A stretch of DNA of 34,139 bases, taken from positions 1 through 34,139 of the forward strand of contig CAMDNC010000015.1 in the NCBI GenBank assembly GCA_945902755.1. The letters run 5' to 3'. Under the pieces are notes generated by a model. It was not told where the DNA came from and searched no databases. It saw only the letters and a program-made list of their open reading frames with translations. The position numbers were made by a program, and so were the translations under genes. Of the stretch, positions 12,201-21,406 are shown piece by piece; position 1 is the first letter of the stretch, and each line of letters begins with the position of its first letter. This DNA is from Flavipsychrobacter stenotrophus (GTDB lineage: Bacteria > Bacteroidota > Bacteroidia > Chitinophagales > Chitinophagaceae).

Positions 12201-13649
12201 ATGAAAAAATTACTTTTACTCCTAGCCTCTGGCTCAATCGCCTTTTCGGCAGGTGCACAGCAGCGTGTAATGAGTGCAGTATCTACTTTGCGCTCAGAAG
12301 AAGGTTTTACCAAAGTGAAAAAGTCTGATGACATGCGTGCTTACATCAAATCAAAAAACAACGCAGCATCAAAAGGCACAGCTCCTAATCGTTGGTATTA
12401 CTATGCAGATTATTTTGATACTTTGATGGAAATTCAAGGTTTCGGTACAGATCTTACAGTTCCATTATTGTGGAATGACACTTTGGCTCGTTTCCAAACT
12501 ACCACTGGAGAGTCAAACAATACAATGGTATCAGTAGCTAACGTTTTTGATCCTTCTTTCCCAGGTTTCAATAACTACGATTATTATCCTGGCATTATGA
12601 GAGTTACTCCTACCGACGCTGTTACCATTACTAAAGTAGATGTTTGGGGTCTTTATGGTTATAACACATCTAAATCTGCAGTGGTTGACACTATCCGTCT
12701 GTCTTTCGTAAGAGGTTCAGGTGGTCCAATAGCTTCCGATGATATATTTAGCGGTTATTCTCTGGGCCCAGGTGGTCACTATGGTTCTACTTGCGTATTC
12801 ATGGATGTGCATTACGATAGCGTATTGAATTATATCCAGAAAGCTGGTATCCTTCCTTCATTGGCAGGTACACCAAACACTGGTTATACTTACGACATCC
12901 TGTTGAACAACTCAGGCGCAACTCCAGCATGGGGTGATACGCTGACAAACGGTCTGTGGCATAAAGAAATAACATTGCCTACACCATTGAATGTTCCAGC
13001 TAATGGTTATGCAGCAGCTTCTATCTCTTTCAAGAGCGGTGATGCTTCATTCCCTACTACTCTCCCAGGTACACGTGTTTTCAATAGCGATGGTACTTAC
13101 AACTACAACATGTTCCGCCCTTTGGTGATGTACAAAACAGATGGTACTACAACTGATCCACAATGGGTAGATTACACTCACCCAATCACAGACAGCAACG
13201 CTAACTTGTCTTATTACCGTAGATTGCCTGCTTACCTTAACGGTTGGGAAGATACTTATGTTCCATTGTGGGCATGGTCTACTAACAGTGGTGCTAACGC
13301 AGCTACTTTGCAACACATATACATGGGTTATGAAGTACAGTGCGCAGCTTGCGGTGTAACTTTTGAACCAGTTGTTGGTGTAAATCAAGTAGCTACTGTT
13401 ACAAAAGCAAACGCTTATCCTAACCCAGCAAACGATCAAGTAAATGTTCCTTTCACTGTTAGCGCTGCTACAGAAGTTACAGTTACTTTGAGCAATGTAT
13501 TAGGTCAGGTAATAGCTACTCAGAACATGGGTAAAGTATCTACTGGTACTGCTGTATTTAGCACTGCTACTTTCGCTCCAGGTGTTTACACTTACAGTGT
13601 TAATGCTAATGGTCAGAAAACTACAGGTCGTGTAGTGTTGGCTCACTAA
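12201..13649 (+). CDS. Secreted protein with T9SS type A sorting domain, paralogue 1
   Basis: A 482-residue protein with a Sec signal peptide (MKKLLLLLASGSIAFSAGAQ, probable cleavage after Gln20) and a C-terminal type A sorting domain of 78 residues (405-482) that begins A-Y-P-N-P-A and ends G-R-V-V-L-A-H. It should be exported by the type IX system to the surface or medium. The middle (about 50-380) is beta-rich and I recognise no catalytic family. It shares several blocks with the next gene, for example G-F-N-N-Y-D-Y-Y-P-G and S-A-V-V-D-T-I-R-L-S-F-V. The motif C-A-A-C-G-V (Cys381, Cys384) lies just before the sorting domain. A possible promoter is TTTG (12136-12139) with TAACTTTA (12155-12162). 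Confidence 0.9.
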   Translation: MKKLLLLLASGSIAFSAGAQQRVMSAVSTLRSEEGFTKVKKSDDMRAYIKSKNNAASKGTAPNRWYYYADYFDTLMEIQGFGTDLTVPLLWNDTLARFQTTTGESNNTMVSVANVFDPSFPGFNNYDYYPGIMRVTPTDAVTITKVDVWGLYGYNTSKSAVVDTIRLSFVRGSGGPIASDDIFSGYSLGPGGHYGSTCVFMDVHYDSVLNYIQKAGILPSLAGTPNTGYTYDILLNNSGATPAWGDTLTNGLWHKEITLPTPLNVPANGYAAASISFKSGDASFPTTLPGTRVFNSDGTYNYNMFRPLVMYKTDGTTTDPQWVDYTHPITDSNANLSYYRRLPAYLNGWEDTYVPLWAWSTNSGANAATLQHIYMGYEVQCAACGVTFEPVVGVNQVATVTKANAYPNPANDQVNVPFTVSAATEVTVTLSNVLGQVIATQNMGKVSTGTAVFSTATFAPGVYTYSVNANGQKTTGRVVLAH

Positions 13650-13957: not shown

Positions 13958-15349
13958 ATGAAAAAAGCACTTTTACTCATTGCATCGGGCCTTATAGCCC
14001 TATCCGCTGGCGCGCAGGAGCGTTCCATCAGCGTATCTGCCAATCCTTTACAAAACAGCTATGATTACAGAGCCGTAAAGGAAGCCATTAACCAAAGAGC
14101 GGCAACTACAGCTGCAAAATCAACCGCTGATGACAGATGGTTTAGTTATGTTGACTATTTCGACCTAAATGAGACAGCCTTCTCCAGCTCAATAGCGCTT
14201 GCTGCCCCTTATTTGTGGAAAGACACGATGGCTGTTATGGCATATTCTAGTGCATCTGGTGGCACTATTTGGCAACACAACCGTACTGTATCTTTAGGTT
14301 TGGTGGCCGACTTAGCATATTCTGGATTCAACAATTTCGACTATTTTCCAGGATTGATGAACATTACATCTAGCAGCACTTATGCAGTAGACTCCATCCG
14401 CTTTTTCGGTAGATATGGCTTTAACCCTACTAAAACAAGTGTGGTAGATACTTTACGCGTTGCATTTGTATATGGCAATGGTGATGCATCTGCTGACATT
14501 TACAGAGCTAACACCACCAATCCAACCGTTCTTGCTAATTATGGGCTTGCTTCAACCGATACCCTCAAGAATCACAGAATGAGATTTGATAGTACCACTA
14601 CAAGAGCCAATGGTGCTACAGTAATAGTAAAAGATATACTTCTCGACAACACAAGATGGGGTGATACGCTTTCAAACGGTACTTTCGTTGGCGAATTATC
14701 AATAGGCGCAACAGCTGCAGGTGTTTCAATACCAGCTAATAATATGATAGGCGCCTCCCTTACTTTCATAAGCGGAGATCCAACATTTGTAGCTCATGAT
14801 ACTGTTTTTGGCTCTACACTAGGTTACAAATACAATATGTTCCGCCCATATGTCGGTTACAAAGGCACTACCTCAACTCCCCAGTTTGCTACTTATAGCC
14901 CCACAGACAGAAACAATGGCATGTTTAAGACTTTGCCTGATACTACTTTGGGCTGGGGCGGACAATTTATCCCTATGTGGTTTTGGAGTGCAAGTGGTGG
15001 TGCTAGTACAAGCCAGTATCCATACATCGACTTCCATGTTAAATGTGCTGCGTGTGGTGTTATAACTGATTTAGGAAATGTAAATGATGTAGCTCAAATA
15101 ACTAGGATAGAAGCATATCCTAACCCAGCAAATGGTACTGTATTTGTGCCATTCACTGTATCTGTCGCATCTGATGTTACTGTTACTCTTAGCAATATGC
15201 TGGGTCAAGTAATAGCAACTACTACTTTTGCCAACACCAAAAATGGCAAAGCCGAGTTCAATACAGCTAATTTGCCTACGGGTATTTACACTTACACCGT
15301 ATCTGCAAAAGGTAAAAAATCTACTGGCCGTATAGCAGTAGCAAACTAA
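13958..15349 (+). CDS. Secreted protein with T9SS type A sorting domain, paralogue 2
   Basis: A 463-residue protein, clearly a diverged tandem copy of the preceding one. It has a signal peptide (MKKALLLIASGLIALSAGAQ) and a 78-residue type A sorting domain (386-463) beginning A-Y-P-N-P-A. Shared internal blocks include D-R-W-F-S-Y-V-D-Y-F-D, G-F-N-N-F-D-Y-F-P-G and S-V-V-D-T-L-R-V-A-F-V. The same C-A-A-C-G-V motif (Cys363, Cys366) precedes the sorting domain. Predicted export is by the type IX system. No enzyme motif is evident; an adhesive or structural surface role is possible. The two copies differ most in loops between the shared blocks. It has its own terminator, so it is expressed separately from its neighbour. 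Confidence 0.9.
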   Translation: MKKALLLIASGLIALSAGAQERSISVSANPLQNSYDYRAVKEAINQRAATTAAKSTADDRWFSYVDYFDLNETAFSSSIALAAPYLWKDTMAVMAYSSASGGTIWQHNRTVSLGLVADLAYSGFNNFDYFPGLMNITSSSTYAVDSIRFFGRYGFNPTKTSVVDTLRVAFVYGNGDASADIYRANTTNPTVLANYGLASTDTLKNHRMRFDSTTTRANGATVIVKDILLDNTRWGDTLSNGTFVGELSIGATAAGVSIPANNMIGASLTFISGDPTFVAHDTVFGSTLGYKYNMFRPYVGYKGTTSTPQFATYSPTDRNNGMFKTLPDTTLGWGGQFIPMWFWSASGGASTSQYPYIDFHVKCAACGVITDLGNVNDVAQITRIEAYPNPANGTVFVPFTVSVASDVTVTLSNMLGQVIATTTFANTKNGKAEFNTANLPTGIYTYTVSAKGKKSTGRIAVAN

Positions 15350-15469: not shown

Positions 15470-17458
15470 ATGAAAAAAACGGTACTCATTTTATCAATTG
15501 GTCTTATCGCTAACAGTGCTATCGCACAAAATGCGAAATATGTTGTGGACAATACACAAAACGCAACTTGTAGGGTTCCATTTGTAGCACCTCCATCGCT
15601 ACACAAAAAGAGTATAAAACCACAACCCGTAAATGCCGCTAGAACAACTGCGTCCACTTTTTGGGGACCAGAAACATTTGGTAGTGGCACGGCCAGTTCG
15701 CTGCCTACGGGTTGGACAGCAAATTCACTACCCTTCTCAGGCAGTAGTACCTGGAAATGGGCTAATACTGCTTCAACATCTACATTCACCATGGGAATGT
15801 TTAACTCTACCACAGCGTCAGATGGTTGGATGATATTCGACTCTGACCTTATAGGTGCAGCATCTGGTGGTACCCCCAGTGGATATTTACAAACACCGCT
15901 TATTAATGCTTGTGCTACTCAATCATCTGTACGGTTAAATTTCCAGAATTACTTCCGCAACTTTTACGACTCTTGTTCTGTATGGGTATGCACTAATGCA
16001 TCTTTTACACCTGGCACCTATCAGGTCTATCCTGTTGTGCTCAATAATACAACCCCTGTCAATGTCTACACAGACAATCCGTCACAAGTACAAATAAACA
16101 TATCTCCATCAGCAGCTATGCAAACTGATGTGTACATCCGTTTTGTATATTACGGATATGCAGGAGGTAGTTATTCGTGGATGATAGACGACATCAACCT
16201 AAGTGACATGGACCCTGTAGATGTAGCGCTTGATAAGTCGTCAATCGTTTACTATGGTGGAACAGCTGCTGGTTTCTCTTCATTTGGCGCCAAACCAGGT
16301 AAAATGATGGACACCGTTTACCCTGTTTCTTTTGCTACCAACTATGGTACTACTGGTTTTCCAGCAGCTACCGTTAATGCTAAAATCTTCCAGGGTACTA
16401 CTTCTGTTTATGATAACAATGTTGCTGTGAATCTACCAGTTAATGCAGTAGACTCTATAGTTGATTTTGTACCGGTGGGCTCGCCTGCTGGCTACTTTTC
16501 TACTACTAATAGCACTTACACTGTACCTTTTGCCGTTAATATGACAGGAGATGCAGTAACAGCCAATAATTTTGATTCTACAGCCTATGTGGTTACAGAT
16601 AGTGTATGGAGTGAAAATGCACCAAATGCACGTTTGACTGGTGGAGCATTTGTGTACAGAACTTCAACACCTCCGCTTATGTCGTTCAGCCCAGCTACTG
16701 GTTTTGTAGTTACTGCTGGCCGTACTGATACATTAACATCGGTAAGTGTAGCATTTGATGATAATACTGCTGCAGGTCAGGTGGTAGGTGTACAGATATT
16801 TCACTTTGATGGAAGTAGTTGGTTATACGATGGTGTAACACAATTCAGAGCATTGGCTGCTGAGGAGATCAGTACTGCTTCTACTATCAGATACGCGTCA
16901 TTCAAAGTAGATGCAGATGCATCTGGCGGCAATATAGTACTATCTGGTGGCGCTGAGGGCACTACATATGCAGCGGTGATAAAAGGACAAGGTAATACTG
17001 CTGATGTGGTGGTACTGCAAAGTACTCCGCCAGCACCTAATAGCATTGTAGGATACGTTGGTTTTTCTGACACCTCTTACAATGATGGTGCCAGCAGCCA
17101 ACAGTTTGGGCAAGACGGTCTTCCTTTTGCAAATGCTTCGGTTCCGCTTATTAATCTCAACTTTGGTCCAGTACCAGAAGTTAGTGTTAAAGATATTGCA
17201 AACAACCAAATAGCTTGCAACGCCTTCCCAAACCCAGCATCTGATGAGCTAACGATTTCATTCTCAGGCACAACTACGGCCGGTGTAACTGTTAGCATTA
17301 CTAACATGCTAGGACAAACGGTAGCAACACAAACACTTACGAACACAACCAGTAGCAAGGTTATATTCAACACCAAAAAAATAGCATCTGGAGTGTACAT
17401 TTTTACGGTGTATACTAATGGAAACAAAACTAACGGCCAAGTAGTAATAGCTCACTAG
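15470..17458 (+). CDS. Secreted protein with adhesin-like jelly-roll and T9SS sorting domain
   Basis: A 662-residue protein with a signal peptide (MKKTVLILSIGLIANSAIAQ, cleavage after Gln20) and a 78-residue type A sorting domain (585-662) beginning A-F-P-N-P-A and ending Q-V-V-I-A-H. Residues about 65-250 resemble the choice-of-anchor J/cleaved-adhesin jelly-roll: E-T-F-G-S-G near the start, L-P-T-G-W-T, D-G-W-M-I-F-D-S-D and the closing W-M-I-D-D-I-N-L. This fold often binds sugars or assists adhesion in Bacteroidota. A middle region (about 250-570) has further beta-sandwich character. Unlike the two genes before it, it is not their close paralogue outside the sorting domain and lacks the CAACGV motif. 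Surface or secreted location is inferred from the export signals. Confidence 0.9.
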   Translation: MKKTVLILSIGLIANSAIAQNAKYVVDNTQNATCRVPFVAPPSLHKKSIKPQPVNAARTTASTFWGPETFGSGTASSLPTGWTANSLPFSGSSTWKWANTASTSTFTMGMFNSTTASDGWMIFDSDLIGAASGGTPSGYLQTPLINACATQSSVRLNFQNYFRNFYDSCSVWVCTNASFTPGTYQVYPVVLNNTTPVNVYTDNPSQVQINISPSAAMQTDVYIRFVYYGYAGGSYSWMIDDINLSDMDPVDVALDKSSIVYYGGTAAGFSSFGAKPGKMMDTVYPVSFATNYGTTGFPAATVNAKIFQGTTSVYDNNVAVNLPVNAVDSIVDFVPVGSPAGYFSTTNSTYTVPFAVNMTGDAVTANNFDSTAYVVTDSVWSENAPNARLTGGAFVYRTSTPPLMSFSPATGFVVTAGRTDTLTSVSVAFDDNTAAGQVVGVQIFHFDGSSWLYDGVTQFRALAAEEISTASTIRYASFKVDADASGGNIVLSGGAEGTTYAAVIKGQGNTADVVVLQSTPPAPNSIVGYVGFSDTSYNDGASSQQFGQDGLPFANASVPLINLNFGPVPEVSVKDIANNQIACNAFPNPASDELTISFSGTTTAGVTVSITNMLGQTVATQTLTNTTSSKVIFNTKKIASGVYIFTVYTNGNKTNGQVVIAH

Positions 17459-17661: not shown

Positions 17662-17754
17662 ATGATATATACCCAGTCAGATAATATTAAGCAGCATTTT
17701 ACGTTAACAATAAAACTGGTTGAATTAACCACAGAGATTGAGTATCAGCATTAA
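17662..17754 (+). other. Possible 30-codon leader frame overlapping the next gene's start
   Basis: An ATG at 17662 opens a 30-codon frame (starting MIYTQSDNIKQHF) that stops at 17754. It overlaps the TTG start of the following gene by 17 nt in another frame. It could be a chance frame; translational coupling to the non-ATG start is a speculative reading. Confidence 0.15.
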
Positions 17755-20700
17755 AACCATATTTATATGCTTATCGTTTCTTTTTGCTAGTGTGGGTGCT
17801 ATGGCCCAAACTGGCAAAAAGACTGGCACAACCAGTGCTAAGGACAGTCATGCCCGTGCTGATAGCATTGCTAATGCAAGAAAGCAGGCGCTGGAAGCCA
17901 CAACTAACGCCAGAAAGAGAGCGCAAGACAGCACAAAAGAAGCCAGAGCGGCGCTACTAAAATCACAAACCAATAGTAGAAAACGCTTTGCTGATAGTTT
18001 AGCTAAGGCCAGAAAAGTCAAAACAGACAGTACAGCAAAAGCTAGAAAATTCAAGACAGACAGTACTGCGAAAGTCAGAAAATATAAGACCAGCAAAAAG
18101 TACATTGATAGTGTAGCCAAAGCAAGAAATAATAAACTAAAAGCTACTCAGAAAGAAAGAACATCAAAATTGGATTCTGTTCAGGCTGTGCGTAAAAATG
18201 CCATGGATAGTATTACCACCGTGCGCAAACAACGAACAGACAGTGTACGTACCAAACAAAAATACAGAACTGATAGCCTAGCAAAAGTAAAAAAGTACAA
18301 GGCCAGCAAAAGATATGCTGACAGTGTTACCCTCACCAAACGGCACCGCTCTGATAGCATAAAGGCTGTGCAGAAAGCATCTAGAGATAAAATAGCTGCC
18401 GTGCGAAAACACTCGCTAGATAGTGCTAAAACAGTACGAACACGCAAAATGGATAGCACTAAAGCGGTAAGAACAAAGTTTGCAGACAGCATAAAACTAG
18501 TTAGAAAAAAGAAAACTGATAGCCTTTTTAAAAAGAAAGAAACCAAAGAAAAAGTAGCAAAGACCACCGAAAAGAAAAAGCAAGAATCAATGAAGCTGAA
18601 GCTGGAACTGAAGCTGAAGCAAAAAAGAGAGGAGTGGTCCAACAAATCGATGTTGAAGAAAAAATGGGGACCTATAAGGCGGGTCACCCAAAACTCTTTT
18701 ACGCATTATAACTATTACTTTAATGCGAATAGAAAGATGGAAGAAGCTGAGTTGAATATGCGGAGAGTAAATAAGGAAAACTACGACTCACTGATTGGGC
18801 TGTTCCCCTTCAACCCAAACAAAGACTCTTCCCTCATGGCTGCCGATATGGACAGTATTGTGCACAAAGTATCAGTAGGCATACAAATACATGACCCGCG
18901 GGTGAAGTGGTCTAATGATATGTATCTGCTACTAGGCCAAGCTTATTACTACAAGGGTAGCTACGAAAATGCTTCAATAGCCTTCAGGTACATTATCAGT
19001 AACAAACAAAAATCTAAAAAAGGCAAAACCAGTGGCAGAAGCAGTTATTATGCTCGTCCCAAAACTTCATCATCAGTAGTGGAAAAAAAGAAAAAGTCTA
19101 AACTGGGCTTTTTACAGCATAAGTCTGTACATAATGATGCATTGTTATGGCTGGCGCGTACTTACACTACTGCTGGGCAAATCGAAAACGGCGAATCTGT
19201 ACTCTCACTGCTAGAGTTTGATGGTAATCTGCCCGACGACCTTACTGGAAGACTGGCTGTGGAAAAAGCGTTCGCCTATATGGAGGCAAAAAATTACACC
19301 GAAGCGTCGAAACAATTATACATAGCTGTTGATGATAACAATCTTCCAGAATGGTTGCGACTTCGCATGGCGTTCCTCAACGGACAACTACTGCAAAATA
19401 TGGGTGATTATGCTGCTGCTGCTGCAAGCTATGAAGAAGTGCTGCATCACTTCCCCAAAATAGAAATGGACTTTTACACCCGTAAGTATATTGCTTATAA
19501 CAAATTAATGGCAGGCAATGCTGTAGCTGACGCCATGGTACCTCTAAAAAAAATGCTGAAGGATAATAAATACTCTAGCTACTATGATCAGGTATACTTT
19601 GTGTTAGGTAAACTAGCTGCCAAAGCCAACAAAAATGATGAGGCCATTACTTACCTCACTAAAAGCACCAAAACACCTAAGGCTACCAAACAGCAAAAAG
19701 CTTTGTCTTTTGCAGCACTTGGCGATGTTTACTATACTTCTGCTAGCTATTCTAATGCCAAAATTGCATACGATAGTTCTGCTAAATATGCTGGGGCTGC
19801 ATCTAAAGACAAAACTATTTTAGCTGCAATTCAAAAAAGCACTGGTTTAAGCGAAATCGCCGGTCCTGCTACTACTATCCGAGAACTGGATAGTATGTTA
19901 CGACTGGCGGCTATGAGCAAAAAAGATCAGCAAAATGTAGTAAGAAAACAAATAAGGGCACTAGAGAAAAAACGAGATGATAGCATTTTTAATGCAGAAA
20001 ATCCTACCGCCTCTGCGCTAAAAGAAGTTACACCAGATGGTACTGCTCCGGGTGGCCCAGCTTGGTATTTTGCCAATCCTGCATTGATGGCACAAGGAAG
20101 TGCTGACTTTAAAAGAAAATGGGGTAATAGACCGCTTAGCGACAACTGGAGAAGAGCATCAGCTGCTCCACTTGCTGGCGGACCAAAAACAGATCCAGGC
20201 ACTACATCTTCTGACGAGAAAGATGAGGCTGATGTGAAAGTAGGTAAGCTAGTTTTAAAAGATGGAATACCCACTGAGGAAAGCTTATTAGCAACCATCC
20301 CGAATACTACTGCCCAAAAAGAACAAGCGATAAAAACACAGCAAAAAGCATACGTGCTCTTAGCAAAAGCCTACATCAAACAGCTAAGCGACTACAAACA
20401 AGCATCTAACACACTGGATACGCTATGTAGACGTTATCCTAATCACTCACAAAAAGAAGAAGAATTATTCTTGAGATATCAGATAGCGGTAAAACAAAAC
20501 AGGCTGGACGAAGCTCAAGGTTATGCAAATGAACTGGTTACTAAGTTTCCCAAATCGCAATATGCGAGCATGCTATCTAACATCAACAGCGAAAGTAAAT
20601 TGAGCGATGAGGCTACTGCAGAAGTCGCAGCGTACTTTGACAAGACCTATGAACTGCTGATGCGCCACCAATACACTGAAGCTGGTATGAGGGCAGAACT

Positions 20701-21406
20701 AGGCAAAACAAAGTATAAACATCCAGTTTACAAAAAACGCTTTGAGGTTACAGAAGCAATGGCGTTTGCAGGTGCTGGCGACTACGATAAAGCAGATTCG
20801 CTAATTTCGAAGTTTATAAAAGCCAATCCTTCAGATTCACTAACAACATGGGCTAAATCAGTTAAGCAATATGTTGGAGATGTGCGCAGTAACAATGGTA
20901 AGCCATCTTGGTATAAAGAAGGACCGGCTGTGGCTGCAAAACCCAAAGAAGATAAGAAATCAACCGATGGCAAACCACTTGGAGCAATGCCTACGGAACC
21001 ATCAACACCGGCCAAACCTGCAGAGCCTGAAATTCCCAAAATGTATGCCTATCATGCCGATAGTGCTCATTATTGCCTCATAGTGCTACAAGGACTGGAT
21101 GCCAGAACAGGTAAATTGAAAAAAGCTATTACTTCTTTCGATTCTGCTAAATATGCTGCATCAAGCCTACAAACCTTAATTGATTTGTATAAAATGGATC
21201 AGGGTATTGTAGTTGTGAAAAACTTTAGCAATGCCGCTGATGCTACAAAATACCTCAGTGAACTAAAATCGTCTAACGTACTGAGCGCATACAAACCAGA
21301 AGAAATTAGTACGTGTATTATATCTGGGTTCAACTACAAAAAAATGTTCGCCGACAAGCAGGTTACTGACTACTTGGTATTCTATAACAAATATTACCCC
21401 AGATAG
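17738..21406 (+). CDS. SprE/PorW-like TPR protein with N-terminal hendecad repeats
   Basis: A 1222-residue exported protein. The start is TTG at 17738: an in-frame stop lies 12 nt upstream, and the next ATG (residue 22) would remove the signal peptide (ISIKTIFICLSFLFASVGA, cut after Ala-Gln near 24). Residues 42-270 are a strongly basic 11-residue repeat, predicted coiled coil. The segment from about 310 (K-K-W-G-P-I-R-R) to 420 has H-Y-N-Y-Y-F-N-A, I-H-D-P-R-V-K-W and Y-L-L-L-G-Q-A-Y-Y-Y, resembling the core of SprE/PorW, a TPR component of type IX secretion and gliding. TPR-like helical pairs continue to about 1050, then a Pro/Lys-rich linker (1055-1102) and a compact C-terminal domain. There is no lipobox, whereas PorW/SprE are usually lipoproteins. 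Its position next to three T9SS cargo genes supports the assignment. Confidence 0.65.
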   Translation: MSISIKTIFICLSFLFASVGAMAQTGKKTGTTSAKDSHARADSIANARKQALEATTNARKRAQDSTKEARAALLKSQTNSRKRFADSLAKARKVKTDSTAKARKFKTDSTAKVRKYKTSKKYIDSVAKARNNKLKATQKERTSKLDSVQAVRKNAMDSITTVRKQRTDSVRTKQKYRTDSLAKVKKYKASKRYADSVTLTKRHRSDSIKAVQKASRDKIAAVRKHSLDSAKTVRTRKMDSTKAVRTKFADSIKLVRKKKTDSLFKKKETKEKVAKTTEKKKQESMKLKLELKLKQKREEWSNKSMLKKKWGPIRRVTQNSFTHYNYYFNANRKMEEAELNMRRVNKENYDSLIGLFPFNPNKDSSLMAADMDSIVHKVSVGIQIHDPRVKWSNDMYLLLGQAYYYKGSYENASIAFRYIISNKQKSKKGKTSGRSSYYARPKTSSSVVEKKKKSKLGFLQHKSVHNDALLWLARTYTTAGQIENGESVLSLLEFDGNLPDDLTGRLAVEKAFAYMEAKNYTEASKQLYIAVDDNNLPEWLRLRMAFLNGQLLQNMGDYAAAAASYEEVLHHFPKIEMDFYTRKYIAYNKLMAGNAVADAMVPLKKMLKDNKYSSYYDQVYFVLGKLAAKANKNDEAITYLTKSTKTPKATKQQKALSFAALGDVYYTSASYSNAKIAYDSSAKYAGAASKDKTILAAIQKSTGLSEIAGPATTIRELDSMLRLAAMSKKDQQNVVRKQIRALEKKRDDSIFNAENPTASALKEVTPDGTAPGGPAWYFANPALMAQGSADFKRKWGNRPLSDNWRRASAAPLAGGPKTDPGTTSSDEKDEADVKVGKLVLKDGIPTEESLLATIPNTTAQKEQAIKTQQKAYVLLAKAYIKQLSDYKQASNTLDTLCRRYPNHSQKEEELFLRYQIAVKQNRLDEAQGYANELVTKFPKSQYASMLSNINSESKLSDEATAEVAAYFDKTYELLMRHQYTEAGMRAELGKTKYKHPVYKKRFEVTEAMAFAGAGDYDKADSLISKFIKANPSDSLTTWAKSVKQYVGDVRSNNGKPSWYKEGPAVAAKPKEDKKSTDGKPLGAMPTEPSTPAKPAEPEIPKMYAYHADSAHYCLIVLQGLDARTGKLKKAITSFDSAKYAASSLQTLIDLYKMDQGIVVVKNFSNAADATKYLSELKSSNVLSAYKPEEISTCIISGFNYKKMFADKQVTDYLVFYNKYYPR
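17861..18550 (+). repeat. Hendecad (11-residue) repeat region with 71-residue super-repeat
   Basis: The encoded residues 42-271 repeat the pattern D-S-x-x-x-x-R-K-x-x-x. Anchor positions are 42, 53, 64, 75, 86, 97, 108, 124, 135, 146, 157, 168, 179, 195, 206, 217, 228, 239, 250 and 261; 17 of the 20 anchors are Asp, and 16 are Asp-Ser. Two 16-residue steps (108-124 and 179-195) carry the related insert K-Y-K-[TA]-S-K-[KR]-Y. The spacing 11-11-16-11-11-11 repeats exactly (86-156 and 157-227), with a third partial copy from 228. Lys and Arg make up a large part of the sequence. Confidence 0.9.

Follow-up and report, generated by a model that had tools for sequence, protein, structure and literature searches.

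A jointed, predicted-helical arm of 11-residue modules on PorW/SprE, with candidate O-glycosylation sequons in most modules

Introduction

The window analyzed here is the whole 34,139-nucleotide stretch of Flavipsychrobacter stenotrophus DNA (assembly GCA_945902755.1, contig CAMDNC010000015.1, positions 1 to 34,139 of the forward strand). It contains a gene whose product carries a long and regular 11-residue repeat ahead of a type IX secretion component, which raises the question of what such a repeat does at this place. A preliminary description, made from the letters of the window, had proposed a coiled-coil rod or ruler crossing the periplasm. We reanalyzed the gene together with its relatives, and the results point to a putative jointed arm with fixed inner distances, most modules of which carry the O-glycosylation motif of the phylum.

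Results

The repeat-bearing protein is identified as PorW/SprE

The protein encoded at 17738-21406 scored 383.1 bits against the PorW/SprE equivalog model NF052312 (cut-off 250), and a single-sequence search of the PDB returned a sole chain at E ≤ 0.1, 8gl8_I, which is SprE of the extended translocon of F. johnsoniae. The same chain ranked first of 1446 matches to the predicted fold (E = 4e-16, TM by target 0.49), in a loose superposition with an rmsd of 12.3. Judged by these matches, the protein is PorW/SprE, a part of the type IX translocon, and the earlier label of a SprE/PorW-like protein was borne out. SprA (TIGR04189, 2461.1 bits) and GldM (TIGR03517, 310.7 bits) are encoded in the same genome, both above their cut-offs. 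Type IX sorting domains are present in three consecutive frames directly upstream of porW (12201-13649, 13958-15349 and 15470-17458). In the genus, 16 of 25 genomes contained two frames of >500 aa over the GldM family cut-off (about 515 and about 525 aa), pointing to GldM paralogues or to a second set of motors.

The protein resembles known PorW/SprE (8gl8 chain I) in its core equivalog match, top fold match, TPR repeats and sequons, as also described in excerpts of PMC10994853 and PMC8754138, but adds a basic and predicted-helical extension to it (Table 1).

Table 1. Coordinates of the features of the porW/sprE gene in the window
Feature	Positions	Strand	Basis
porW/sprE gene, TTG start, 1222 residues	17738-21406	+	open reading frame
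Signal peptide, residues 1-23, TTG start	17738..17806	+	peptidase-I-like end AMA before Q24; cleavage judged by eye
N-terminal extension, residues 24-300 (277 residues)	17807..18637	+	absent from sampled PorW/SprE outside the clade; predicted helical
Array, 20 modules of 11 residues, 16 D-S-[AILVT] sequons	17861..18550	+	self-identity, module count
Joint 1, YKTSKKYIDS, residues 116-125, first 16-residue step	18083..18112	+	helix break in both models; conserved motif
Joint 2, YKASKRYADS, residues 187-196, second 16-residue step	18296..18325	+	helix break; 71 residues past joint 1
PorW/SprE core, residues 301-1222, TPR scaffold and nine further sequons	18638..21403	+	NF052312; 8gl8_I by sequence and fold

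The extension contains an 11-residue array that is periodic mostly at the protein level

The array modules start at residues 42, 53, 64, 75, 86, 97, 108, 124, 135, 146, 157, 168, 179, 195, 206, 217, 228, 239, 250 and 261. The module count thereby recovered everything that had been reported of the spacing, namely 20 modules and two 16-residue steps (108 to 124 and 179 to 195) placed exactly 71 residues apart. The motif D-S-x4-R-K attributed to each module was too strict as written: of the 20 modules, 16 have D-S, ten have R-K at places 7-8 and seven have the full form. Nine pairs of D-S were found 11 residues apart, a number reached by none of 10000 shuffles of residues 24-300, among which the largest count was 2.

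At lags 11, 71 and 82 the self-identity of the array gave z values of 11.8, 7.3 and 8.3, respectively, so that lag 71 has no special status beyond the register. Two full copies and a partial third of a 71-residue unit had also been proposed; the protein has only two steps, though the spacing of 71 recurs in relatives (see below). In the DNA of the array, Tandem Repeats Finder detected only 2.7 copies of a 33-base unit, which indicates that the periodicity resides mostly in the protein. The region is strongly basic (87 K+R, 28 D+E), in line with the preliminary description.

Searches with the extension gave nothing over the cut-off in Pfam (the best was Mucin-like, 16 bits against 28.7), no PHROGs match with E ≤ 1, and no match better than E = 0.1 by sequence in the PDB. 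Foldseek with the arm alone also gave no match, which is expected of a bare helix and says little.

The array-bearing extension is confined to one clade of the sampled PorW/SprE proteins

PorW matches were present in 57 of 60 genomes (own included) and, in a sample of the family, in 184 of 195. The array was found at all 32 genus loci fetched, some of them cut by contig ends, and in total the array-bearing extension occurred at 63 fetched loci under 22 genus labels, including relatives of Taibaiella and Flavipsychrobacter. Among the matches listed for the family sample, one set begins at residues 5-227 and the other at 282 or later; one later alignment piece, starting at 331, comes from a genus that has the extension and belongs to a row cut by a contig end. 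The D-S array was present at 30 of 30 loci from the early-start set and at 0 of 10 from the late-start set, a split that is partly by choice, these loci (L056-L085 and L086-L095) having been picked by alignment start. One PorW without the extension, L090, has four sequons before its core, out of the 11-residue register and the most among the ten such proteins. Record titles among 80 of the 98 loci include Taibaiella, Flavipsychrobacter and Chitinophagaceae, on which the assignment of the family to Chitinophagaceae was based; Taibaiella soli, T. chishuiensis, Flavipsychrobacter stenotrophus and strain LGM1 are represented there. One record, L160 (JASGCQ010000061.1), bears the PorW of the clade under a Phycisphaerales title and is probably mislabelled or a mixed metagenome bin. 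In two other families of the order, L044 and L050 contain long K/E/Q-rich insertions within the PorW core.

A quick-search tree of 89 rows was built from the core only, with L007, L017, L028, L032, L053 and L055 left out and with rows labelled as extended when the 300 residues preceding the core contained at least six sequons. All 59 extended rows were separated from the rest by a single branch (SH-aLRT 99), a pattern that fits one gain and no loss of the extension within the 89-row sample.

F. johnsoniae SprE is without the array. Used as a query against 395 genomes of the phylum, the extension returned PorW only, in two genomes, one being the window's own, and at E up to 10 it found only itself in its own genome; a single-sequence query of such biased composition may miss distant arrays. 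Among 300 frames from the genome of a relative, obtained with a home-made frame caller and signal-peptide rule, none had more than one sequon pair 11 residues apart. Among the open-licence PubMed Central texts listed by literature searches, no title or abstract opening mentioned this extension of PorW/SprE. The preliminary description had regarded functional homologues lacking the repeat, with an unconserved period, as evidence against its proposal: PorW/SprE outside the clade does lack the repeat, while within the clade the period is kept.

The joints lie at nearly fixed distances from each other and from the core

AlphaFold2 was run on residues 24-350 with 20 rows and on the whole mature protein with 40 rows. 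The former model reached a mean pLDDT of 82.3 over 327 residues (160 of them at ≥90; pTM 0.25) and placed helices at 11-95, 97-165 and 168-280 in mature numbering, that is, of 85, 69 and 113 residues. The preliminary description had left the choice between an ordered and a disordered chain to structure prediction, which thus returned helix and not coil. The whole-protein model (pTM 0.46) gave much the same helices (19-95, 97-164 and 168-276), with a pLDDT of about 43-75 per block in the arm, partly under 50 and clearly below that of the residues 24-350 model. In both models the helix breaks at joint 1 at mature residue 96, which is residue 119, and at joint 2 at mature residues 165-167 (whole protein) or 166-167 (residues 24-350), corresponding to residues 188-190. 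Both predicted breaks therefore fall inside the 16-residue steps.

Across relatives, the joints follow a consensus close to Y-[KRH]-x-S-[KR]-[KRH]-[YF]-x-D-S. The last two joints are 71 residues apart in 47 of the 51 proteins with at least two joints (89 in three, 82 in one), and among the 59 joint-bearing proteins, 51 have their last joint 114 residues ahead of the core boundary; one of the 60 examined shows none by pattern. In L018 a single joint is listed, the pattern missing the other; the joint table leaves out L007, L017 and L028, which are cut by contig ends. The free arm measures 19-154 residues across 48 proteins and 71-154 across the 27 of the genus, a count from which L032, L062, L065 and the proteins with fewer than two joints are also left out. 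Its standard deviation in the 48 proteins is 26.5 residues, compared with 4.6 for the joint-joint and joint-core distances, which indicates that the arm accepts indels almost exclusively at its free end.

Of all the results, the near-fixed joint distances argue most strongly for a definite shape of the arm, and they count against a ruler of fixed total length. A match of length to a periplasm-spanning partner, also raised earlier, fared no better, since full-length GldM of the genus measures 508-531 aa against a free arm of 71-154, compared here as ranges only. On these distances, the extension is a predicted jointed arm and not a whole-length ruler.

Helix breakers are rare in the extensions (Pro 0.19% and Gly 0.30%, compared with 3.92% and 4.60% in cores), and among the 119 joint motifs two contain Gly and one contains Pro, a scarcity that makes tight hairpin turns at the putative joints somewhat less likely. 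Three joints were observed in L004, L029, L032 and L069, where the first precedes the second by 60, 46, 59 and 71 residues, respectively, a pattern that resembles duplication of the segment between joints.

The O-glycosylation sequon is enriched and conserved in the array

According to excerpts of the published work, the O-glycosylation motif of Bacteroidota is D(S/T)(A/I/L/V/M/T) (PMC12871550; PMC8729774). The protein in the window contains 25 such sequons, 16 in the array and nine in the core, and its signal peptide, recognized by eye, implies export. In this respect the array resembles Bacteroidota O-glycoproteins, with the motif in 16 of 20 modules of a protein bearing an export signal, and differs from them in that the sites form a regular 11-residue array, lie in a predicted helix, are nearly all Ser and are known here from sequence alone.

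In the 63 extensions, 1017 D-S-[ILVTAM] sequons were counted against 84 by shuffling, and PorW cores contained 581 against 160. Ser comes next after 1064 of the 1351 Asp residues in extensions, 668 of 1001 successive D-S spacings equal 11, and in the genus 559 of 625 modules keep D-S. In the 40 rows of alignment A2, Asp is retained in D columns at 91.0% (extension) versus 83.6% (core) and Ser in S columns at 87.8% versus 76.7%, with overall identities to the query of 0.47 and 0.50, respectively. In the four deepest relatives, whose cores are 27-30% identical, D-S-hydrophobic is still present in a looser register: their 50 D-S spacings include 38 that equal 11n or 11n + 5, compared with 508 of 553 in the genus. 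Within cores, nine D-[ST] columns are strongly conserved, five of them with both Ser and Thr among the rows, and two of the nine align with motifs in F. johnsoniae SprE.

That SprE is an O-glycoprotein, and that O-glycosylation is important for its stability, is stated in an excerpt of PMC10994853. In P. gingivalis, following excerpts of PMC8729774, PorW is among the outer-membrane-associated proteins with the most sites found or predicted, and PorM is glycosylated. An excerpt of PMC12871550 describes the oligosaccharyltransferase of the system as still undiscovered and its function as largely unknown, and reports a common glycan core that includes hexuronic acid.

Several observations weigh against glycosylation or fail to argue for it. 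D-T occurs 25 times in extensions compared with 1064 D-S, whereas D-S : D-T is 593 : 200 in PorW cores and 83 : 67 in a sample of exported proteins of a relative. Since the system also takes Thr, the sequon alone leaves the near-exclusive use of Ser unexplained; helix propensity may, we infer, lie behind it. A hydrophobic third place was dropped as evidence for glycosylation, the same restriction appearing in 61 of 66 modules without D-S, and so was avoidance of Glu, which accounts for similar shares of Asp replacements in the extension (25/61) and the core (93/203). In the relative, sequons showed a modest excess in exported proteins (observed/expected 1.72 versus 1.38 in other soluble proteins, p = 0.04), and Asp was preferred to Glu before [ST]-hydrophobic with an odds ratio of 2.08 (p = 0.0001), where shuffled composition gives about 1.34. 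In the genome of the window, GldM has no sequon and SprA has 10, compared with 7.0 by shuffling.

A strict lipobox is absent from the extension-bearing rows

All PorW members share a lipobox in a comparison of nine species, as given in an excerpt of PMC8754138. The protein in the window departs from this published PorW by its peptidase-I-like signal, and a strict lipobox was not found in it. By crude patterns, none of the 63 rows with the extension had the strict lipobox (in five of them a contig end removes the N-terminus), compared with 1 of 11 rows from the rest of the family and 7 of 19 from the rest of the order; a looser pattern gave 5 of 63, 3 of 11 and 9 of 19, respectively. Taken together, 8 of the 30 rows without the extension (from L034-L054 and L086-L095) have a strict lipobox, at variance with the published comparison. 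As the published comparison covers nine other species and the rows here differ, the lipobox is a variable feature of PorW. Most clade members have a TTG start at the matching place under a simple start rule, and ATG codons are scarce around the signal peptide.

A direct swap of the lipid for the extension was considered and rejected, because 10 of the 11 family rows without the extension also lack the strict lipobox. The lipid seems to have been lost before the arm was gained, and the lineage in which the arm arose probably has no lipid anchor on its PorW.

Discussion

The locus encodes PorW/SprE with what appears to be a new kind of arm on a core that is already known. We favor, at a probability of roughly 0.45, a glycosylated helical arm, in which the sugars are inferred. 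The PorW chain would be exported by Sec and then cut by signal peptidase I, and many of the D-S-[ILVTAM] sequons of the arm would be O-glycosylated in the periplasm. With three turns of the helix completed every 11 residues, the sugars would stand in a row along one side of the basic helix. The arm would begin at the translocon mouth, where the N terminus of SprE contacts SprA. It may serve as a tether, stiff, jointed and coated with sugar, by which PorW is placed and shielded from proteolysis, its likely partners being glycans of the wall or the outer membrane. The hexuronic acid of the glycan core could, as a guess, offset the basic helix. A more specific version, which we regard as rather doubtful, is a glycan ladder: a jointed helix with O-glycans at steps of about 1.6 nm and joints at exact distances from the translocon, whose sugars position PorW. 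These sugars would dock to wall or outer-membrane glycans and do the positioning job that a lipid does elsewhere, their acidic core sugar being set against the basic helix.

It is also quite possible, though we prefer the glycosylated arm, that the array has a structural role only, as a hendecad helix or coiled coil without sugar, its Asp and Ser being kept for packing and for salt bridges (Asp with Lys or Arg of an adjacent turn or chain). The array has the 11-residue period of right-handed hendecad coiled coils, two hydrophobic places three apart and a predicted helix, which reached a pLDDT of at least 90 in about half of the shorter model. Conservation of D-S goes together with that of hydrophobic residues at places 3 and 6 and of Arg at place 7, and the preference for Ser over Thr, the hydrophobic third place kept even without D-S and the unexceptional share of Glu among Asp replacements all agree with a demand of the helix itself. 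Hendecad coiled coils have a continuous hydrophobic core at a, d, e and h, and in this respect the array is mixed, with Arg and Lys/Arg at would-be core places and two 5-residue insertions: places 3 and 6 of its seam are mostly hydrophobic or small, while in the genus place 7 is Arg in 69% and place 10 Lys/Arg in 52%. Against the structural account, D-S persists in the deep relatives despite their looser register. Moreover, Asp and Ser tend to be lost together, since among 144 intermediate modules without D-S, 97 have neither residue, 26 have Asp only, 16 have Ser only and five have Thr without Asp, counts that are inflated by shared descent. We know of no reason why packing should demand exactly the sequon of the phylum.

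We consider two further explanations improbable. At a rise of 0.15 nm per residue, about 270 helical residues would measure about 40 nm if straight, and the almost fixed joint-to-core distances would suit a periplasm-spanning rod or ruler, a straight right-handed coiled coil setting the distance from the outer membrane to the wall or the inner membrane. Such a ruler is at odds with a free arm of anything between 19 and 154 residues (71-154 within a genus whose GldM stays at 508-531 aa), and with the helix breaks at both joints; it is also absent from PorW outside the clade, and P. gingivalis PorW is likely monomeric in an excerpt of PMC8754138. As for a basic tether of low complexity, produced by repeat slippage and largely disordered, it would account for the biased composition, for the duplication-like extra joints in four proteins and for the low pTM of both models. 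LEA proteins offer a comparison for such a tether, which would perhaps be LEA-like. Nevertheless, Pro and Gly are nearly absent, a helix is predicted, the distances are fixed where slippage should vary them, and the extension is nearly as identical to the query as the core is.

If the glycosylated arm is the right reading, it would offer a built-in test of what O-glycans do. The rows without a lipobox further suggest that lipidation of PorW is not universal, in which case some translocons must hold PorW otherwise.
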